Shown here in pieces: positions 13,738-26,390 of a stretch of DNA of 64,000 nucleotides. A program made the translations under genes and the position numbers. Below the pieces are notes generated by a model, which did not search any database, was not told where the DNA came from, and was given only the letters and a program-made list of their open reading frames with translations. This stretch comes from Streptomyces avicenniae (GTDB taxonomy: Bacteria > Actinomycetota > Actinomycetes > Streptomycetales > Streptomycetaceae). The first letter of the stretch is position 1, and each line of letters begins with the position of its first letter. Location: NCBI RefSeq assembly GCF_000719135.1, contig NZ_JOEK01000005.1, positions 186,001 through 250,000 on the forward strand, given 5' to 3'.

Positions 13738-13848
13738 GCATTCTTCACAGGATCTCCACACGGAGTGGCGCGGCCGAACTGCCCTGTAGCGCGTGTGTAG
13801 TTGCGGACATGTAGTGCACGAAGCGTCCTGCGCGACACCAGGAGAGAT

Positions 13849-16800
13849 GTGACAACGAAACGACACCGCACGCGCGTCGCCGCCGTCGCGGCCTGCGCCG
13901 CCGTGGCAGCCGCCCTCACCGCTTTACCGGCAGGAGCCGCCGCACCGGCGGAAGGCACGGGCGGAAGGACCGCCACCGAGGGGCCGTCCACGACGGTCAC
14001 GCTGGTCACGGGCGACCGCGTGGTGACGAACGGGCCGGAGGGGACCGTCCGTCTCATACCCGCCGAGGGCCGCGAGGGGATACCCTTCCGCGTCCTGCGC
14101 GCGGAGGGCGCGGTCTTCGTCATACCGGCGGACGCCCAGCCGCTCGTGGCGGACGGCACGCTGGACAGCCGCCTGTTCGACGTGACCGAGCTGAGCCGTG
14201 ACGCGTACCGGCGCGCGGACGGCCTGCCGCTGATCGTCACCTACACCGGCGACCGCCCGGCGACGCTGCGCGCCGCCGAGGTCCGCGCCGACCTGCCCGC
14301 CATCGACGGCGAGGCCCTGACCGTGGACGCGGAACGGGCCGGGGCGCTGTGGCAGCAGCTCACCGCACCGGCGTCCGGCGAGGCGTCGGCCCTGGCCGCC
14401 GCGCCGGGGATCGCGTCGATCGCGCTGGACGGCATCGCCACCAAGACCCTGGCCGAGAGCGTGCCGCAGATCGGCGCGCCGGAGGCGTGGGAGGCGGGCT
14501 ACGACGGCGAGGGCGTCACCGTCGCCGTGCTCGACACCGGGATCAGCAGCACGCACCCGGACGTCGCCGACCACATCCTCGCGGCCGAGAACTTCTCCGA
14601 CGCCGAGGACGCGGAGGACCGTGACGGCCACGGCACCCACGTCGCCTCCACCGCGACGGGGACGGGCGCCCTGTCGGACGGCACCTACACCGGCGTCGCG
14701 CCCGGCGCCGACCTGCTCAACGGCAAGGTCCTGGACGACACGGGGTCCGGCTGGGAGTCGGACATCATCGAGGGCATGCAGTGGGCCGTCGATCAGGGCG
14801 CCGACATCGTCAGCCTCAGCCTCGGCGGCACCGCCACTCCTGAACTCGACCTGATGGAGGAGGCCGTCAACACGCTGTCGGCCGAGTCCGACGCGCTGTT
14901 CGTCATCGCGGCGGGCAACGAGGGCCCCGGCAGCGGCACGGTCGGCAGCCCGGGCACGGCCGAGGCGGCCCTGACGGTCGGCGCCGTGGACAAGCAGGAT
15001 CTCCTCGCCGACTTCTCCTCGACCGGCCCGACCATCGGCGACGGCTTCGTCAAGCCCGAGGTCACGGCCCCGGGCGTGGACATCGCCGCAGCGGGCGCCG
15101 AGGGTGCCGCGATCTGGGACTACGGGACGCCCGTCACGGACGGCTATGTCGCGATCAGCGGCACGTCCATGGCGACCCCGCACGTCTCCGGCGCCGCCGC
15201 CCTCCTCGCGCAGGCCAACCCTGACCTGACGGGCGAGCAGCTCAAGGCCGCGCTCACGTCGTCCGCCGTCTCGACGGGCGACTACTACACGCCGTTCCAG
15301 CAGGGCACGGGCCGCATCGACGTCCCCGCCGCCCTCGCCCAGAGCGTCATCGCCGAGACCGGACCGCTCAGCTTCGGCGTCGTGCCCTACCCGCAGGACG
15401 AGTCGGAGCCCGTCACGCGGGACCTGACCTACCGCAACCTGGGCGACGCCGACGTCACGCTCGACCTGGCCACCACCACCATCGGCCCTGACGGCGCCCC
15501 GGCACCCGAGGGCCTGTTCACCCTCTCCGCCGACACCGTCACCGTCCCGGCGGGCGGCACCGCCACCGTCGAGGTCACGGCGGACGCCCGTGTCGGCGAC
15601 GCCTTCGGCGGCTTCGGCCTCTGGGTCACCGCCACCGGCGAGGACGGCACCACCGTCCGCACGGCGGGCGGCGTCGAGCGCGAGGCGGAGCGCCACGAGC
15701 TGACGATCACCGCGAACGGCCGCGACGGCGAACCCAGCACGGACTGGAGCGCCACGGTCTACGACCTGACCAGGAACGAGATGTTCTGGATCGGTCCCGG
15801 CGAGGACGGCACGGCCACCCTCCGCCTGCCTGAGGGCGACTACGTCGTGGACAACACGATCTACGACTGGGCGGACCCCGAGGAGCCGCCGGTCGGCGTG
15901 GACTTCCTCGCCCTCCCCCACCTGCGGCTGACCGAGGACACCACCGTCGCGACCGACTCGGCCGACGCACGCCCGATCGACGCCACCGTGCCCGACCGGA
16001 ACGCCGAACTCACCGACGTGACGCTGGGATACGACGTCGCCTCGCCGGACGGCTACAGCTTCGCCTCCAGCCTGGGCACCGGCAACCCGGCCGAGGGGCT
16101 GCGCTCCGGAGCGCTCGGTGACGCCCCCGAGGACTGGTACACCAGCACGTCCTTCTCCGGCACCTGGGAGACCGCGGGCGCCCAGTACCACGCGGCCGAC
16201 TTCCGCGAGACCCCGCTCTACACCGGCCTGGAGCACCACCTCCGCAACCGCGACCTGGCCCGTATCCGCACGACGCTGGGCTCGCCGGCCCCTGACGCGG
16301 CCGGGCTGCTGTTCACCATGAACGAGAACCAGTGGATGGCGTGGGCCGAGACGCGTCCGGTCCCGGAAACCCTGGACGTGTACGTCGAGGTGGACGCCGG
16401 TGCCTGGTTCCAGTCGTTCGAGGTCCTGACGCCCGAGGGGTATCCGGGCGCCACGCTGGAGGGGCTGCCCACCGAGTACGCGCCACGTGAGCGGGCCAGC
16501 GCCACCTTCAACGTCGGCGTCCTCGGCACCACGCTCGACACCGACGCGGACGAGGGCCTCTACCGCAGCGGCGACACGATCTTCACCACCTTCCCGACGA
16601 TCCGCGACAGCGGCGGCCACTCCTACATCGGCTGGGAGGACGGCCACACGACCACGCTCTACCGCAACGGCGAGGAGTACGCGTCCAGCAGCGACCCGCT
16701 GGACTGGTCGGCGTTCGAACTGCCCGCCGAGGAGGCCGAGTACGAGTTGGTGACGACCGTGGAACGCGGCGCCCCCGGCTCGACCACCAGCTCCACCGTC

Positions 16801-17157
16801 ACCTCCGCCTGGACGTTCACCTCGGCGCGGACCGGCGAGGACGAGCAGGAACTCCTGCCCGCCTCGGCGATCCACTTCACGCCGCGCCTGGACGCCCGCA
16901 GCACGGCCCCGGCCGACCGGACGTTCCACGTCCCGGTCACGGTCGAAGGCCCGGCCGCCGGGCGGCAGTTGGACGAGCTGACCGTCGAGGTCTCCTTCGA
17001 CAGCGGCGAGACGTGGGACGACGTCCGCGTCCGCCACGGCAAGGTCAAGGTCCACAACCCGGACGCGGGCGGCAGCGTCTCCTTCCGGGCGACGGCGACC
17101 GACCGCGCGGGCAACACCAGCACCCAGACGATCATCGACGCCTACCTGACCAGGTAG
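13849..17157 (+). CDS. Secreted S8 family serine peptidase, copy 2 (TTA codon)
   Basis: A 1,102-residue paralogue of the preceding gene, with identical spacing of the catalytic residues: Asp229, His261, Ser440. Long stretches around the active site are nearly identical, while the C-terminal beta-rich half has diverged (for example the LDLMEE and EMFWIG segments). The GTG at 13849 follows CAGGAGAGAT; an ATG 48 bases earlier lacks such a site. Codon 26, inside the signal peptide (TALPAG), is TTA, which copy 1 does not have. This copy is therefore a candidate for bldA-dependent, growth-phase-linked expression. It has its own promoter region after the copy 1 terminator. Confidence 0.93.
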   Translation: MTTKRHRTRVAAVAACAAVAAALTALPAGAAAPAEGTGGRTATEGPSTTVTLVTGDRVVTNGPEGTVRLIPAEGREGIPFRVLRAEGAVFVIPADAQPLVADGTLDSRLFDVTELSRDAYRRADGLPLIVTYTGDRPATLRAAEVRADLPAIDGEALTVDAERAGALWQQLTAPASGEASALAAAPGIASIALDGIATKTLAESVPQIGAPEAWEAGYDGEGVTVAVLDTGISSTHPDVADHILAAENFSDAEDAEDRDGHGTHVASTATGTGALSDGTYTGVAPGADLLNGKVLDDTGSGWESDIIEGMQWAVDQGADIVSLSLGGTATPELDLMEEAVNTLSAESDALFVIAAGNEGPGSGTVGSPGTAEAALTVGAVDKQDLLADFSSTGPTIGDGFVKPEVTAPGVDIAAAGAEGAAIWDYGTPVTDGYVAISGTSMATPHVSGAAALLAQANPDLTGEQLKAALTSSAVSTGDYYTPFQQGTGRIDVPAALAQSVIAETGPLSFGVVPYPQDESEPVTRDLTYRNLGDADVTLDLATTTIGPDGAPAPEGLFTLSADTVTVPAGGTATVEVTADARVGDAFGGFGLWVTATGEDGTTVRTAGGVEREAERHELTITANGRDGEPSTDWSATVYDLTRNEMFWIGPGEDGTATLRLPEGDYVVDNTIYDWADPEEPPVGVDFLALPHLRLTEDTTVATDSADARPIDATVPDRNAELTDVTLGYDVASPDGYSFASSLGTGNPAEGLRSGALGDAPEDWYTSTSFSGTWETAGAQYHAADFRETPLYTGLEHHLRNRDLARIRTTLGSPAPDAAGLLFTMNENQWMAWAETRPVPETLDVYVEVDAGAWFQSFEVLTPEGYPGATLEGLPTEYAPRERASATFNVGVLGTTLDTDADEGLYRSGDTIFTTFPTIRDSGGHSYIGWEDGHTTTLYRNGEEYASSSDPLDWSAFELPAEEAEYELVTTVERGAPGSTTSSTVTSAWTFTSARTGEDEQELLPASAIHFTPRLDARSTAPADRTFHVPVTVEGPAAGRQLDELTVEVSFDSGETWDDVRVRHGKVKVHNPDAGGSVSFRATATDRAGNTSTQTIIDAYLTR

Positions 17158-20479: not shown

Positions 20480-20572
20480 GTTTCCTCCAGGGCTGCTCAC
20501 AAAGGAGTTGAGTCCTTGCGTCGCGGTACGGCTACGTAAGGTAGTGTCCAGCCAGGATGACAGAGCAGCAAA

Positions 20573-20584
20573 CTTGCTCGCAAG
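20573..20584. promoter_or_regulatory. Inverted repeat CTTGC-TC-GCAAG in divergent regulatory region
   Basis: A 5-bp perfect inverted repeat about 90 bp upstream of the XRE gene, with another CTTGC half-site at 20602-20606. The region between the ATP-binding gene and the XRE gene (20480-20676) is less GC-rich than the genes. An operator for the XRE protein is plausible but unproven. Confidence 0.3.
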
Positions 20585-20676
20585 CTCAAGACAATCGAAA
20601 ACTTGCGCACCGGGGAATCTGGCATATGCCGCAGCGCGACAAGGCCGATAAGGTACGCGCCCAGGGAGGGGTACGC

Positions 20677-21540
20677 GTGACAGACGCTCAGCCGAACATC
20701 CATCGCCGCAGGCTTGGACTCGCGCTCAAGGGGCTGCGAACCGCCGCCGGTCTGACACTCAAGGAAGCCGCCGAACAGCTCGCCCTGTCCGGCGAATCGG
20801 CGCTCAGCCGCATAGAGCACGGTCGGCAACGCGTACAACCGACCGCTGTCCTGGGCTACTTCGAGGTCTACGGCCTGCGTGACCAGGAGCGCAGGAACTA
20901 CCTGATGTACCTGGCCAAGCAGGCGGCGTCCGGCAAGCAGAGCAACCTCTTCGAGGAGTACCGCACGGCGATCCGTGACCCCTTCGCCGACTACCTCCAA
21001 CTGGAGGAACTCGCCTCGCGGTCGGAGACATTCGCGAGCATCGTCCCTGGGCTGCTCCAGACCGAGGCTTACGCTCGGGCTGTCGTTCAGGGCAGCAGGA
21101 AGTGGCAGACCGGGCGGGAGATCGACAATTTCATCCGACTACGGATGGCACGGCAGGCTGTGCTCACGCGGGAAACGCCGATGCACCTGTGGTGCGTGCT
21201 GGACGAGTCGGCTGTCCGAAGGCAGGTGGGCGGCCCGGAAGTCATGCGTGAACAGCTGAGATACCTGCTCGACGTCTGCGAAGCCCAGCCAAGCATCACC
21301 CTGCAAATCCTGCCGTTCGACCGAGGCTCGCATGCCGCGATGGATGGCGGCTTCCACCTGCTTCATTTCCCGGCCGGACCGCCCGTCGTGGTCGTCGAGC
21401 CGATGACAACCACCCTGTTCCTGGAGGAAGATAGCGACATCGGGCGCTACGAGACGTGCTTCAACCATCTACGCTCCGAAGCTCTCGACGGCGAGGCGTC
21501 CCTCGGCTTCATCCACGATGCGATCAAGGAACAGGACTGA
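20677..21540 (+). CDS. XRE regulator with DUF5753 domain (WhiJ-like)
   Basis: A protein of 287 residues. The N-terminal HTH reads RRLGLALKGLRTAAGLTLKE, then ALSGESALSRIEHGRQRVQP. The C-terminal DUF5753 domain is recognised from FASIVPGLLQTEAYARAVVQ, LTRETPMHLWCVLDESAVRR and ITLQILPFDRGSHAAMDGGF. Streptomyces carry many paralogues, of which WhiJ is the best known; they influence development and secondary metabolism together with DUF397 partners. The GTG at 20677 follows GGGAGGGG. The stop overlaps the DUF397 start by one base. Third-position GC is lower than in the core genes. Confidence 0.9.
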   Translation: MTDAQPNIHRRRLGLALKGLRTAAGLTLKEAAEQLALSGESALSRIEHGRQRVQPTAVLGYFEVYGLRDQERRNYLMYLAKQAASGKQSNLFEEYRTAIRDPFADYLQLEELASRSETFASIVPGLLQTEAYARAVVQGSRKWQTGREIDNFIRLRMARQAVLTRETPMHLWCVLDESAVRRQVGGPEVMREQLRYLLDVCEAQPSITLQILPFDRGSHAAMDGGFHLLHFPAGPPVVVVEPMTTTLFLEEDSDIGRYETCFNHLRSEALDGEASLGFIHDAIKEQD

Positions 21541-21764
21541 TGATCAAGAAGGTTGACCTCACCAATGCCGCGTGGGCCAAGAGCAGCCTGAGCAACGGCG
21601 GCGACAACTGCCTTGAGGTCGCCTTCATCGACGGCGTCGTGGCCCTGCGCGACTCGAAAGACGTCGGTGATCCTGACGCCGCCGTTCTGATCCTCTCCGA
21701 GGACGACTACCGCGCCTACACCGGCGGCATCCGCAACGGACAAGCCAACCTCCTCCTCCCCTGA
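21540..21764 (+). CDS. DUF397 domain protein
   Basis: A 74-residue protein matching the DUF397 pattern closely: WAKSSLSNGGDNCLEVAF, VALRDSKDVG, then a hydrophobic strand and EDDYRAYTGGIRNGQ. DUF397 proteins are small partners that pair with neighbouring XRE/DUF5753 regulators in Streptomyces, possibly as antagonists. Coupled to the upstream regulator by TGATG. Confidence 0.92.
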   Translation: MIKKVDLTNAAWAKSSLSNGGDNCLEVAFIDGVVALRDSKDVGDPDAAVLILSEDDYRAYTGGIRNGQANLLLP

Positions 21765-22968: not shown

Positions 22969-23235
22969 ATGGAACGGTCCGAGCACAGCACCCCATGGGC
23001 GATGAAACTCGTCACCGACCGGCTGCCCACGCCCCCACCAGCCTACGGGAGGGTGACGCTCGACGGGAAGACGCAGATGGCCGTCTACACCGACTGGAGA
23101 GGCCACGTCGTGGAGATGGGAAGGCACGGTACTTCCAAGACGAAAGGCACCGCGTCGATGTCCGGAGGAAGCGACGGGCAGACGCCGCAGACTCAGACGC
23201 AGGACGATCACACGACCGACTACGAATCGGACTGA
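22969..23235 (+). CDS. tgmA: Graspetide-type RiPP precursor (ATP-grasp target peptide)
   Basis: An 88-residue precursor. The leader has STPWAMKLVTDRLPTPPPAY, a Pro-rich block, then RVTLDGKTQMAVYTDWRG and HVVEMGRHGTS, the conserved pattern of the putative ATP-grasp target RiPP family. After residue 54 comes a hydroxyl-rich region with Thr/Ser at 55, 56, 58, 61, 63, 65, 68, 72, 75, 77, 82, 83 and 87, and acidic residues at 69, 79, 80, 84, 86 and 88. These are donors and acceptors for omega-ester links. Asp69-Gly70 is an aspartimide-prone pair. The ATG at 22969 follows AAGGAGCG. First gene of a three-gene operon. Confidence 0.88.
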   Translation: MERSEHSTPWAMKLVTDRLPTPPPAYGRVTLDGKTQMAVYTDWRGHVVEMGRHGTSKTKGTASMSGGSDGQTPQTQTQDDHTTDYESD

Positions 23236-23241
23236 CACACG

Positions 23242-24234
23242 GTGCGCTCCACCGTCCTGGTCGTCACGTCTCTGGAAGACGTCACTTCCGACCAGGTCAT
23301 CGACGTGCTCAACAAGCGGGGTTCATCCGTCGTACGGGTCGATCCGGCAGACATCGGTCGGGGCCTCTCCTTCGAGGCTCACATCGATGCGGCAAGTGGG
23401 GAATGGAGCGGACGCCTCTGCACGCCCACGCGGAGTGTCAGGCTGGAGGAGATCAGGGCTGTCTACTATCGGCGTCCCACGCCGTACGCCAACCGATTCG
23501 CGCACCTGTCCAAGCAGCAGCAAGCATTCGCCACCGCCGAGGCCAAGCATGGACTCGGCGGTGTACTGGCCAATCTGCCAACGGCCAGGTACGTGAATCA
23601 TCCGCAGGCTGTGACCGCGGCGGACTTCAAGCCGACCCAGCTACGGATCGCCGCTCAGCTGGGCTTCGCCATTCCCCGCACGTTGATCACCAACGAGGTC
23701 CAGGCGGCAGGAGAGTTCGCCCGCGAACACGGTCCCGTCATCTACAAGACGTTCCGTGGCCTCCCCCTTTCGGAGGACGGCACAACCGGTGCCATCTGGA
23801 CACAACGCGTCGCGCCCTCCTCCTTCGACAGTTCACTTTCTGTCACGGCCCATCTGTTCCAGAAGGAGATCCCGAAATCCGGCGACGTCCGCGTGACGGT
23901 GGTCGGAAGAAGGGCCTTCGCCACGCGCATCACAGCACCGCACGACGAACTCGACTGGCGACGCGGCCACTGGGACGAGCTGACGCACGTGGCGGTCCGG
24001 CTTCCGCCGTCGATCGAAACGGCTCTGTTTCACTATCTGGCAGCCTTCGATCTGGTCTTCGGATGCTTCGACTTCGCCCTCACGGGGCCGGCCGATGACC
24101 CGGGGCACTGGATCTGGATCGAATGCAACCCGAACGGACAGTGGGGCTGGCTGCCCGAGGCGACGGACATCGCGGAGGCGTTCGCCGATGTCCTCATGGA
24201 GAAGGAGACCGGCGGTGAGCACGTCACCCGCTGA
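23242..24234 (+). CDS. tgmB: ATP-grasp ribosomal peptide maturase
   Basis: A 330-residue ATP-grasp ligase. Early VLVVTSLEDVTSDQVIDVLN and IRAVYYRRPTPY are typical of the graspetide ligases of the SAV_5884 type. VNHPQAVTAADFKPTQLRIA followed by GFAIPRTLITN starts the ATP-grasp core. VIYKTFRG carries the ATP-binding Lys, and WIWIECNPNGQWGWLPEAT near the C-terminus holds the metal-binding Glu and Asn. It is expected to activate Asp/Glu side chains of the precursor as acyl phosphates and form esters with Thr/Ser. Starts at GTG, six bases after tgmA. Confidence 0.9.
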   Translation: MRSTVLVVTSLEDVTSDQVIDVLNKRGSSVVRVDPADIGRGLSFEAHIDAASGEWSGRLCTPTRSVRLEEIRAVYYRRPTPYANRFAHLSKQQQAFATAEAKHGLGGVLANLPTARYVNHPQAVTAADFKPTQLRIAAQLGFAIPRTLITNEVQAAGEFAREHGPVIYKTFRGLPLSEDGTTGAIWTQRVAPSSFDSSLSVTAHLFQKEIPKSGDVRVTVVGRRAFATRITAPHDELDWRRGHWDELTHVAVRLPPSIETALFHYLAAFDLVFGCFDFALTGPADDPGHWIWIECNPNGQWGWLPEATDIAEAFADVLMEKETGGEHVTR

Positions 24235-25414
24235 CGAGTCGGAGGCCACACGGCTGCGCCAACGCCTGGCGGAGGCTCTCGTGGAAGCCGGGGTCGTCGG
24301 CGACGAGCGATGGGGCGACGCGGTCCGCGCGGTCCCCCGGCACCGGTTCACCCCCGGTTTCTACCTGCCGTCCGGCGCCGCCGACGAGCACGGCCTGCCG
24401 GTCTGGGAGCCGGTCACCGCCGCCCTCGACCGGCCACGGTGGCTCACGGCGGCCTACTCGGACATCTCGCTGATCACCCAGTTCGACGGCGAGGAGCCCG
24501 ACTGGGCGGCGCCCCGCGCGCGGCACGGCGGCGCGCCCACCTCGTCGTCCACGCTCCCGTCCCTCGTCCTGCGCATGTGGCGCGACGCGGAGGTCACCGA
24601 GGAACACGACATCCTGGAGATCGGCACGGGCAGCGGATACTCCACCGCCCTCGTCGGTGAACGTCTCGGCTCCACCCGCCTGACCAGCATCGACGTGGAC
24701 GACCACCGGCTCGCCGTGGCAGCCGACGCGCTCCACGACTGCGGCTACACACCCACCCTCGCGGTGGCCGACGGCCGCCATGGGTACTGGCCGGAGTCGC
24801 CCTTCGACCGGATCGTCGCCGCCTGCTCCTTCCGTACGGTACCCCCCGCTCTCGTCGCACAGACACGCCCCGGCGGCAAGATCCTCGTGACACTGGGCGG
24901 TTGGCTGCACGGGTACGCGCGCGTCCTGCTCACCGTCGCCACCGACGGCACGGCGGCGGGCCCCTTGCTGCCCGGGACGGTCTCGTTCATGTCGGCCCGC
25001 ACCGACGCCCCGCCCCCCTTCGGCAACCCGGCGCACTGGGCAGCCGAGGTCCCCGCCGCCCGACGAGACGCACGGCACAGCCCGGCACGGATCACGGACG
25101 CGACCGAGGAGGCGTTCTTCCTCCGCTTCCTCGCCCAGTCCTCCGTACCCACCGCGCAACTGACCGCGACCGGCGACGACGCCCTCCATCTCATCGACGT
25201 GGCGACCGGATCAGCAGCGGTTCTCACCCGGGGCGAGGGAGCCTGGCGCGTGGGTGAGAAGGGGCCCGTCCGCCTGTGGGAACGCGTCGAGGAGACGCTG
25301 GACGCCTACGACGCGGCCGGTAGGCCGGGCCAGCAGGAGTTCGGCCTCCACGTCAACGGCCGGACGCAGTACGTGTCTCACCCCCGGATGCCGGACCTGC
25401 GCCTGGGCGTCTGA
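24215..25414 (+). CDS. tgmC: PIMT-like methyltransferase of the ATP-grasp peptide system
   Basis: A 399-residue SAM-dependent methyltransferase related to protein-L-isoaspartate O-methyltransferase. RAVPRHRFTPGFYLP near residue 35 and TSSSTLPSLVLRMWRDA match the PIMT substrate region, ILEIGTGSGYSTALVGERLG is the SAM-binding motif I, and FDRIVAACSFRTVPPALVAQ follows. In characterised graspetide clusters such enzymes methylate a core Asp, which cyclises to aspartimide. The roughly 180-residue C-terminal extension is typical of the subfamily. GTG 24215 follows GAAGGAGACC and overlaps tgmB by 20 bases. Confidence 0.9.
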   Translation: MSTSPADESEATRLRQRLAEALVEAGVVGDERWGDAVRAVPRHRFTPGFYLPSGAADEHGLPVWEPVTAALDRPRWLTAAYSDISLITQFDGEEPDWAAPRARHGGAPTSSSTLPSLVLRMWRDAEVTEEHDILEIGTGSGYSTALVGERLGSTRLTSIDVDDHRLAVAADALHDCGYTPTLAVADGRHGYWPESPFDRIVAACSFRTVPPALVAQTRPGGKILVTLGGWLHGYARVLLTVATDGTAAGPLLPGTVSFMSARTDAPPPFGNPAHWAAEVPAARRDARHSPARITDATEEAFFLRFLAQSSVPTAQLTATGDDALHLIDVATGSAAVLTRGEGAWRVGEKGPVRLWERVEETLDAYDAAGRPGQQEFGLHVNGRTQYVSHPRMPDLRLGV

Positions 25415-25520: not shown

Positions 25521-26390
25521 ATGGCCCTGACGCTGGGCGTCGCGATCCTCACTATGGGGACGCGCCCCGAAGAACTGGCCGCGCTGCTCGCCTCGGTCCG
25601 GGCGCAGACGGCACCGGCGGCACGCACCGTGGTCATCGGGAACGGCTGCTCCCTGGCGGACCTGGCGCTGCCGTCCTGGGTGCAGGCGGTGGAACTGCCG
25701 GAGAACCTCGGGGTGACCGGCGGGCGGAACGTCGCCCTGGCGCATCTGCGGGACGTGAACCTGGTGCTGGACCTGGACGACGACGGACTCCTCGTCGCCG
25801 ACACCGACTTCGCGCGCATCGTGCGGATGTTCGAGGCCGACCGGGAGTTGGGGATCGTCGGGTTCCGGATCGCGGACGAGACCGGGTTCACCCAGCGCCG
25901 CCATGTCCCGAGACTGCGGGCTGGTGACCCGCTGCGCGGTGGGCAGGTGACGACGTTCCTCGGCGGGGCGCACGTGCTGTCGCAGCGGATGCTGGCGCAG
26001 GTCGGGGGCTGGCCGGACGCGTTCTTCTTCTCCCACGAGGAGACGGACCTGGCCTGGCGCGCGCTGGACGCCGGATGGAAGATCGTCTACGAGCCGGGCC
26101 TTCTGCTGCAGCACCCCCGCACCTCGCCGGCCCGGCACGCCGTCTTCCACCGGACCACCGCCCGCAACCGCGTCTATCTGGCCCGGCGCCACCTGCCGAC
26201 CGCGCTGGTGCCCCTCTACCTGGGCGTCTGGACGGCGTTGACGCTCGCGCGCACGCGGGACACGGCCGGACTGCGGGCGTGGTTCGGCGGCTTCGCGGAA
26301 GGCTGGCGCACCCCCTGCGGAACACGCCGCCCCCTGCGCTGGTCCACCGTGTGGACCATGACCCGCCTCGGACGGCCGCCGGTGCTGTGA
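25521..26390 (+). CDS. Glycosyltransferase family 2 protein
   Basis: A protein of 289 residues with a GT-A fold. The N-terminal strand VAILTMGTRPEELAALLAS and VELPENLGVTGGRNVALAHL bind the nucleotide sugar. The DxD-like motif is LVLDLDDDGLL, and the acceptor/catalytic region is HEETDLAWRALDAGWKIVYE, with the ED/ETD motif of family 2. The C-terminal third resembles membrane-associated rhamnosyl- or cell-envelope transferases. The acceptor is unknown. It follows the RiPP cluster by 106 bp but has its own spacing and codon use, so a role in peptide glycosylation is speculative. A fragment of a paralogue lies upstream of the cluster. Confidence 0.85.
   Translation: MALTLGVAILTMGTRPEELAALLASVRAQTAPAARTVVIGNGCSLADLALPSWVQAVELPENLGVTGGRNVALAHLRDVNLVLDLDDDGLLVADTDFARIVRMFEADRELGIVGFRIADETGFTQRRHVPRLRAGDPLRGGQVTTFLGGAHVLSQRMLAQVGGWPDAFFFSHEETDLAWRALDAGWKIVYEPGLLLQHPRTSPARHAVFHRTTARNRVYLARRHLPTALVPLYLGVWTALTLARTRDTAGLRAWFGGFAEGWRTPCGTRRPLRWSTVWTMTRLGRPPVL

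Follow-up and report, generated by a model that had tools for sequence, protein, structure and literature searches.

A probable graspimiditide operon of Streptomyces avicenniae with a widespread core family that nearly lacks the Thr-Asp ladder

Overview

The window, that is the whole stretch of 64,000 nucleotides of Streptomyces avicenniae DNA analysed here, contains an operon formed by a precursor gene, an ATP-grasp ligase gene and a PIMT-type methyltransferase gene, all three with intact frames (Table 1). It is very probably a graspimiditide (group 13 graspetide) cluster in which Asp69 of the precursor is the site of the aspartimide. This kind of product is already known and the version found here, whose core family we have named family II, is widespread. 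An earlier note on this DNA had taken the core to be new, which does not hold: the precursor has 138 matches in the protein database at E ≤ 0.001, its own protein counted, and its core sequence is almost identical throughout the family. What distinguishes family II is the near absence of the mirrored Thr and Asp residues of other families, and its ring pattern probably departs from the Thr-Asp rule.

Table 1. Position of the operon, of the neighbouring regulatory genes and of the other graspimiditide operons of the host
Feature	Position	Strand	Basis
HTH regulator with DUF5753	20557..21540	+	PF13560, PF19054
DUF397 partner of the DUF5753 regulator	21537..21764	+	PF04149, 49.7 bits
Graspetide precursor, TgmA type, 88 aa	22969..23235	+	TIGR04186, PF14408
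Precursor parts: leader, core, Asp69-Gly70 in the loop	residues ~1-52 (leader), ~53-88 (core)		
Asp69-Gly70 codons, predicted aspartimide site	23173..23178	+	conservation among 99 distinct cores
ATP-grasp graspetide synthetase, TgmB type, GTG start, 330 aa	23242..24234	+	TIGR04187
PIMT-type O-methyltransferase, extra C-terminal domain, TgmC type, GTG start, 399 aa	24215..25414	+	TIGR04188
Further host graspimiditide operon (L001-L003)	C12:230283-232589		
Further host graspimiditide operon (L005-L007)	C9:571246-573561		
Further host graspimiditide operon (L009-L011)	C6:195098-197435		

The operon and its gene products

Each of the three proteins scores above the curated cut-off of its family, and the three-gene operon originally described is confirmed. 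In the profile search, the precursor reaches 60.6 bits with TIGR04186 (cut-off 25, E = 1.2e-16) and 63.2 bits with PF14408 (cut-off 25), both graspetide precursor families; the ligase reaches 390.6 bits with TIGR04187 (cut-off 350, E = 4.8e-117) and the methyltransferase 396.7 bits with TIGR04188 (cut-off 380, E = 1.1e-118). These three E-values, together with a gene order that recurs in named relatives, indicate that the operon is not a product of chance. The sequence AAGGAG is located 6 nt 5′ of the precursor ATG. The start of the methyltransferase is placed at the GTG at 24215, which gives a 20-nt overlap with the ligase stop; its longest open reading frame begins at the ATG at 24095 and has a far larger overlap with the ligase.

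A canonical repair PIMT was considered for the methyltransferase and rejected, with 61.3 bits for TIGR00080 (cut-off 159.05) and 80.9 bits for NF001453 (cut-off 188). The predicted fold of the protein aligns with 1dl5 over 308 residues (model residues 14-390), including the C-terminal extension, and an extra C-terminal domain has been described for RiPP PIMT homologues (PMC13001092).

Conservation of the family II core

The residue numbers given in the earlier note for the core (Asp69-Gly70 and the acids at 79, 80, 84, 86 and 88) are correct, and the Asp-Gly that it called single is indeed so within the core, a second one lying at residues 32-33 of the leader. The comparison of 99 distinct family II cores of the same length shows that T61, S65, D69, D80, D84 and D88 are invariant (99/99). 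Residue 63 is Ser in 98 cores and Thr in one, residue 55 is Thr in 95 and Ser in four, and T58 is kept in 98. Among the acids, residue 79 is Asp in 98 cores and Glu in one, while E86 is kept in 94. Residue 70 is Gly in 97 cores, Ser in one and Glu in one, so that Asp69, with its following Gly, is the best candidate for the predicted aspartimide, in agreement with the earlier proposal. Residue 59, a Lys in the window, is Thr in 63 cores, Lys in 24, Ser in eight, Arg in two, Asn in one and Ala in one. Further along, residue 72 varies freely (Thr in 8/99), residue 75 is Pro in 83 cores, Ser in eight and Thr in five, and residue 77 is Thr in 86 and Ser in six. Hydroxyls situated after the loop are conserved too (T82 in 96 cores, T83 in 98) and have no role in the model proposed below. 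Covariation among residues 57, 59 and 86 was sought in the family II cores and none was found.

As the hydroxyls from 55 to 65 are invariant or nearly so and positions 72 and 75 vary, the donors of the stem most likely lie within residues 55-65. The range of 55-77 put forward before is therefore sustained for residues 55, 58, 61, 63 and 65, and unsupported in its full extent. In four relatives (P0098, P0103, P0109 and P0118) all the extra residues fall between S65 and D79, as a loop would predict. Altogether, the three family matches and the conservation of the core bear out the assignment to the fuscimiditide and amycolimiditide type, with predicted esters between N-terminal hydroxyls and C-terminal acids.

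Two natural variants are of interest at this point. The precursor of Yinghuangia soli (L080, 4001-4240, the same sequence as L284) has a TAG at residue 86, its core ending at Tyr85 without E86-D88, and strong ligase and methyltransferase matches adjoin it; this shortened core is a natural test of the need for E86-D88. The sister core family E (L264, L278; ...SADSYDSDDSSDSDHD) has a dense Ser/Thr and Asp core without Asp-Gly, and no methyltransferase was found in the approximately 2.3 kb downstream of its ligase, which, in two loci only, fits the idea of a methyltransferase tied to the presence of Asp-Gly in the loop. A methyltransferase does, however, accompany those family I cores in which Asp is followed by Ser.

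The methyltransferase motif and the enzyme trees

The PIMTs of lassimiditide, graspimiditide and imiditide have the motif WXXXGXP in common (PMC13001092). The window methyltransferase reads YDAAGRP at residues 365-371, the Trp being replaced by Tyr. Among 40 methyltransferases of family II, 29 have Tyr and 10 have Phe at the first position of the motif, and one has a gap there, whereas all 32 methyltransferases of the comparison set (from L090-L125) have Trp. Trp is also found in 25/25 rows outside family II, comprising 21 of other graspetide core families (five from L090-L125) and four PIMT-like proteins of the host. The latter four (L013-L016) score 220-331 bits with TIGR04188, below the cut-off, have no ligase match in their locus and possibly belong to other RiPP types.

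Family II ligases form one clade (9 rows, support 100/100) on a stem of 0.63, and family II methyltransferases another (9 rows, support 100/100) on a stem of 0.77, both including the window and its own genome copy. The long stems, along with a core of their own and the Tyr/Phe motif, indicate that core, ligase and methyltransferase changed together, a joint change that may reflect a different product. The exchange of Trp for Tyr or Phe offers a natural test of substrate recognition by RiPP PIMTs.

The same exchange has to be weighed in favor of a graspetide cluster whose methyltransferase installs either isoaspartate, with the aspartimide as an intermediate, or a stable methyl ester, the product carrying no aspartimide. 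The related SsfA was purified as a mixture of Asp and isoAsp (PMC10787088; PMC13001092), which points in the same direction. On the contrary, three of the four characterised relatives were purified as the aspartimide (PMC13001092) and the Asp-Gly is kept in 97/99 family II cores, so we regard a product of this sort as rather unlikely and retain the aspartimide at Asp69 as the preferred assignment.

Ring register

In the other core families of the genus, the Thr residues before the loop Asp tend to mirror the Asp residues after the loop, the arrangement needed for an antiparallel stem held shut by nested Thr-Asp esters. The published links of fuscimiditide, Thr3-Asp22 and Thr7-Asp18, follow this pattern (PMC12291112). 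At least three Thr-Asp pairs in one register are present in 119 of 124 distinct cores of other families, versus 2 of 105 in family II; for this split P0051, which had been filtered among the others, was recognized as family II and moved by hand. The five exceptions among the 124 are L156 (its core start was misread by the script), L233, L237 and L241 (family I2), and L245 (another precursor type). Distinct-core counts were drawn from 347 collected precursors, including 120 of the 138 database matches; L072, L117, L174 and L252 were left out (broken frame, or another family), and from L126-L138 only L126-L128 were used, the remainder being other short precursor families.

The host itself illustrates the contrast: in its cores on contigs C12, C9 and C6 (families I, III and IV) all four post-loop Asp are matched by Thr in one register, while no register of the window core contains more than a single Thr-Asp pair (shuffle p = 1.0). 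Part of this contrast is a matter of composition, since by their representatives family II has only three or four pre-loop Thr and the other families three to seven; family J, with only three pre-loop Thr, still matches all three. For 11 representative families combined, which share ancestry and are not independent, the Thr-Asp excess has a p of 1.5e-7 in simple shuffles and of 0.0125 with residue parity kept, and p ranges from 0.0025 to 0.73 in single families. With Ser/Thr as donors and Asp/Glu as acceptors the mirror is weak in these 11 families (combined p = 0.03; parity-preserving, 0.07). An earlier and cruder split gave single-family values of 0.03 to 0.99 for this wider pairing, with 0.89 for the window core; family I2, the one at 0.99, has an ambiguous loop Asp and for that reason was not among the 11.

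Admitting Ser and Glu leaves a tie at three pairs between four registers in the window core and between six in the family II consensus, so no single register is claimed for the family. In a weak ranking, S65-D80 with T61-D84 is tentatively put first, short of an even chance; the points that speak for it are weak ones, namely that both pairs are invariant, that they follow steps of 4 as in fuscimiditide, and that the Yinghuangia relative lacks E86-D88. In the window core this register comprises those two pairs and no more, against three in each of four other registers. An arrangement of S63-D80, residue 59-D84 and T55-D88 is unlikely, a mixed or bulged register equally so, and S65-D84 with S63-E86 and T61-D88 would be quite improbable.

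The arrangement that includes residue 59 raises the possibility that Lys59 itself is a donor, forming an amide with D84 or E86, while the relatives with Thr59 would make an ester, in a natural ester-to-amide swap. Thr, Ser and Lys, which together account for residue 59 in 95/99 cores, are the residues reported as graspetide donors (PMC13097080), and the register with sum 39 sets 55, 59 and 63 opposite D88, D84 and D80, in fuscimiditide-like steps of 4. Nevertheless, four of the 99 cores have Arg, Asn or Ala at this position, residue 59 shows no covariation with 86, and position 57 is basic too, so the Lys may serve for charge only. A Lys59 amide is therefore improbable, and donors among the conserved hydroxyls are preferred.

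The near absence of the Thr-Asp mirror, together with the Tyr/Phe motif, suggests that the ring pattern of family II may use Ser donors; judged from its cores, the family probably departs from the Thr-Asp rule, and it is plausible that its ring pattern has been undescribed so far. A more specific proposal, which we consider rather unlikely, is that the lineage has evolved a different stem with Ser donors (S63, S65), possibly with a Glu acceptor or the Lys59 amide, and has lost the methyltransferase Trp; the signature Trp would then have been lost because the enzyme reads a differently closed, longer loop. A ring pattern that does differ would show that Ser donors and longer loops are within the reach of graspimiditide ligases when they close a stem.

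Distribution and relatives

The family II core is found in 23 of 295 Streptomyces genomes of an evenly drawn genus sample (E ≤ 1e-15) and in 11 of 297 genomes of a wider family draw, the own genome being counted in both. The precursor, the ligase and the methyltransferase occur together in 40 of the 44 loci with a family II core (L046-L089). A ligase match lies at or adjoining the precursor in all 44, although in L065, L072 and L074 it is weak (E 1e-15 to 1e-35). Relatives of the operon are named in Streptomyces, Actinoallomurus, Streptomonospora, Yinghuangia and Wenjunlia. This patchy distribution and the nearly fixed core suggest that the cluster has spread horizontally and that its product is under strong selection. 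The near invariance of the core across several actinomycete families also suggests that the product may have a fixed target; in the literature consulted, none of the graspimiditides is assigned a biological role.

The host genome has four such operons on four contigs, all three proteins being over the cut-off in each, with four different cores. TIGR04186 matches occur in 214 of the 295 genus genomes, and some of them belong to another family of short precursors, whose sequences end in THFDD (nine loci: L129-L133, L135-L138). In genome G090, two equal-scoring precursor copies (C1:720-965 and C1:9238166-9238411) lie on opposite strands at the ends of a 9.24-Mb contig, as if inside the terminal inverted repeats of a linear chromosome.

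The ring pattern would already be described if albusimiditide of S. albidoflavus J1074 belonged to core family II, and two S. albidoflavus records with a family II precursor (P0010 and P0064) are among the matches listed. The rings of albusimiditide reportedly comprise 22, 46 and 70 atoms, sizes that, by our reckoning, are unobtainable from the spacing of the family II core. Furthermore, albusimiditide is described as having Thr-Asp esters (PMC13001092), while family II has almost no Thr-Asp ladder, which makes this identity improbable as well. Finally, a decayed or silent cluster with no product in S. avicenniae, to which the fairly long branches of the window enzymes within their own clade (0.32 and 0.42) might point, is very unlikely given the open frames, the family cut-offs passed and the invariant core residues kept.

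Genomic neighbourhood

A DUF397/DUF5753 gene pair is present 1.2-2.4 kb upstream of the operon. Such pairs have been reported near group 11 and group 13 graspetide clusters (PMC13097080), and the HTH/DUF5753 protein, approximately 1.4 kb upstream, is a possible candidate for the regulator of the operon; its homologues appear in only a minority of the 44 family II loci and in varying places. Clustering of the frames that flank these 44 loci revealed no recognizable protease or transporter conserved beside the operon, and the commonest cluster was present in 20 loci.

Approximately 6 kb upstream, on the same strand as the operon, a large open reading frame (window 13801-17157) encodes what we take to be a secreted subtilisin-type protease, a possible and unlinked candidate for leader removal. 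About 0.1 kb downstream, also on the same strand, there is a family 2 glycosyltransferase (window 25521-26390), weakly similar to MftF.

Proposed biosynthesis

We infer every chemical step of the following pathway by analogy with the chemistry described for the graspimiditide type (PMC13001092, PMC12291112, PMC10787088). The ligase would bind the leader of the precursor and phosphorylate carboxylates near the C-terminus, most likely those of D80 and D84 and then those of D88 and/or E86. The conserved hydroxyls of T55, T58, T61, S63 and S65 would attack the phosphorylated carboxylates, and two to four side-chain esters would close the stem around a long loop (approximately residues 66-79). The methyltransferase would then recognize the closed loop and methylate Asp69, whose methyl ester would collapse onto the amide of Gly70 to give the aspartimide, which might later open mainly to isoaspartate. 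Removal of the leader and export would depend on proteins encoded outside the operon.

Comparison with known systems

Group 13 graspetides, or graspimiditides, are numerous, with 1326, 962 and 1432 clusters in the surveys of three groups, and the four characterised members are described as Thr-Asp stem-loops with a Gly after the methylated Asp (PMC13001092). Like the window operon, graspimiditides at large bring together TIGR04186, TIGR04187 and TIGR04188 proteins. A text search with three core strings and graspetide terms tied no paper to the family II core, in a literature where such sequences stand mostly in figures and supplements, and comparison of the precursor and two typed cores with solved structures found no graspetide.

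SsfA of Streptomyces sp. F-3 comes from a three-gene cluster like that of the window, and its Asp-Gly site is reported to become an efficient substrate only once cyclisation is complete (PMC10787088). The residue numbering of SsfA (a fragment 66-97, Asp81, and a final stretch of 12 residues containing four Asp but lacking Glu) would place it, by deduction, in core family I′ (e.g., L116) and not in II. The window core differs from it by the presence of Glu86 and by having no matching register.

Amycolimiditide and albusimiditide are stem-loop graspimiditides with an Asp-Gly aspartimide (PMC13001092), and the Asp-Gly of the window is alike. Amycolimiditide has four nested Thr-Asp esters (PMC12291112). 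Family II, in which the Thr-Asp ladder is absent in 103 of 105 distinct cores, is set apart from both by their descriptions.

Fuscimiditide of Thermobifida fusca (ThfA/ThfB/ThfM) also arises from a precursor, one ATP-grasp ligase and one PIMT homologue, and has a C-terminal core with the aspartimide in the loop (PMC12291112; PMC13003496), as is predicted for the window. Its 22-residue core is described as closed by Thr3-Asp22 and Thr7-Asp18 esters around a 10-residue loop (PMC12291112). By that description, the window core is longer, at about 36 residues, carries Ser at both 63 and 65, and would have a loop of 13 or 14 residues with S65 and either D79 or D80 as the closing pair.
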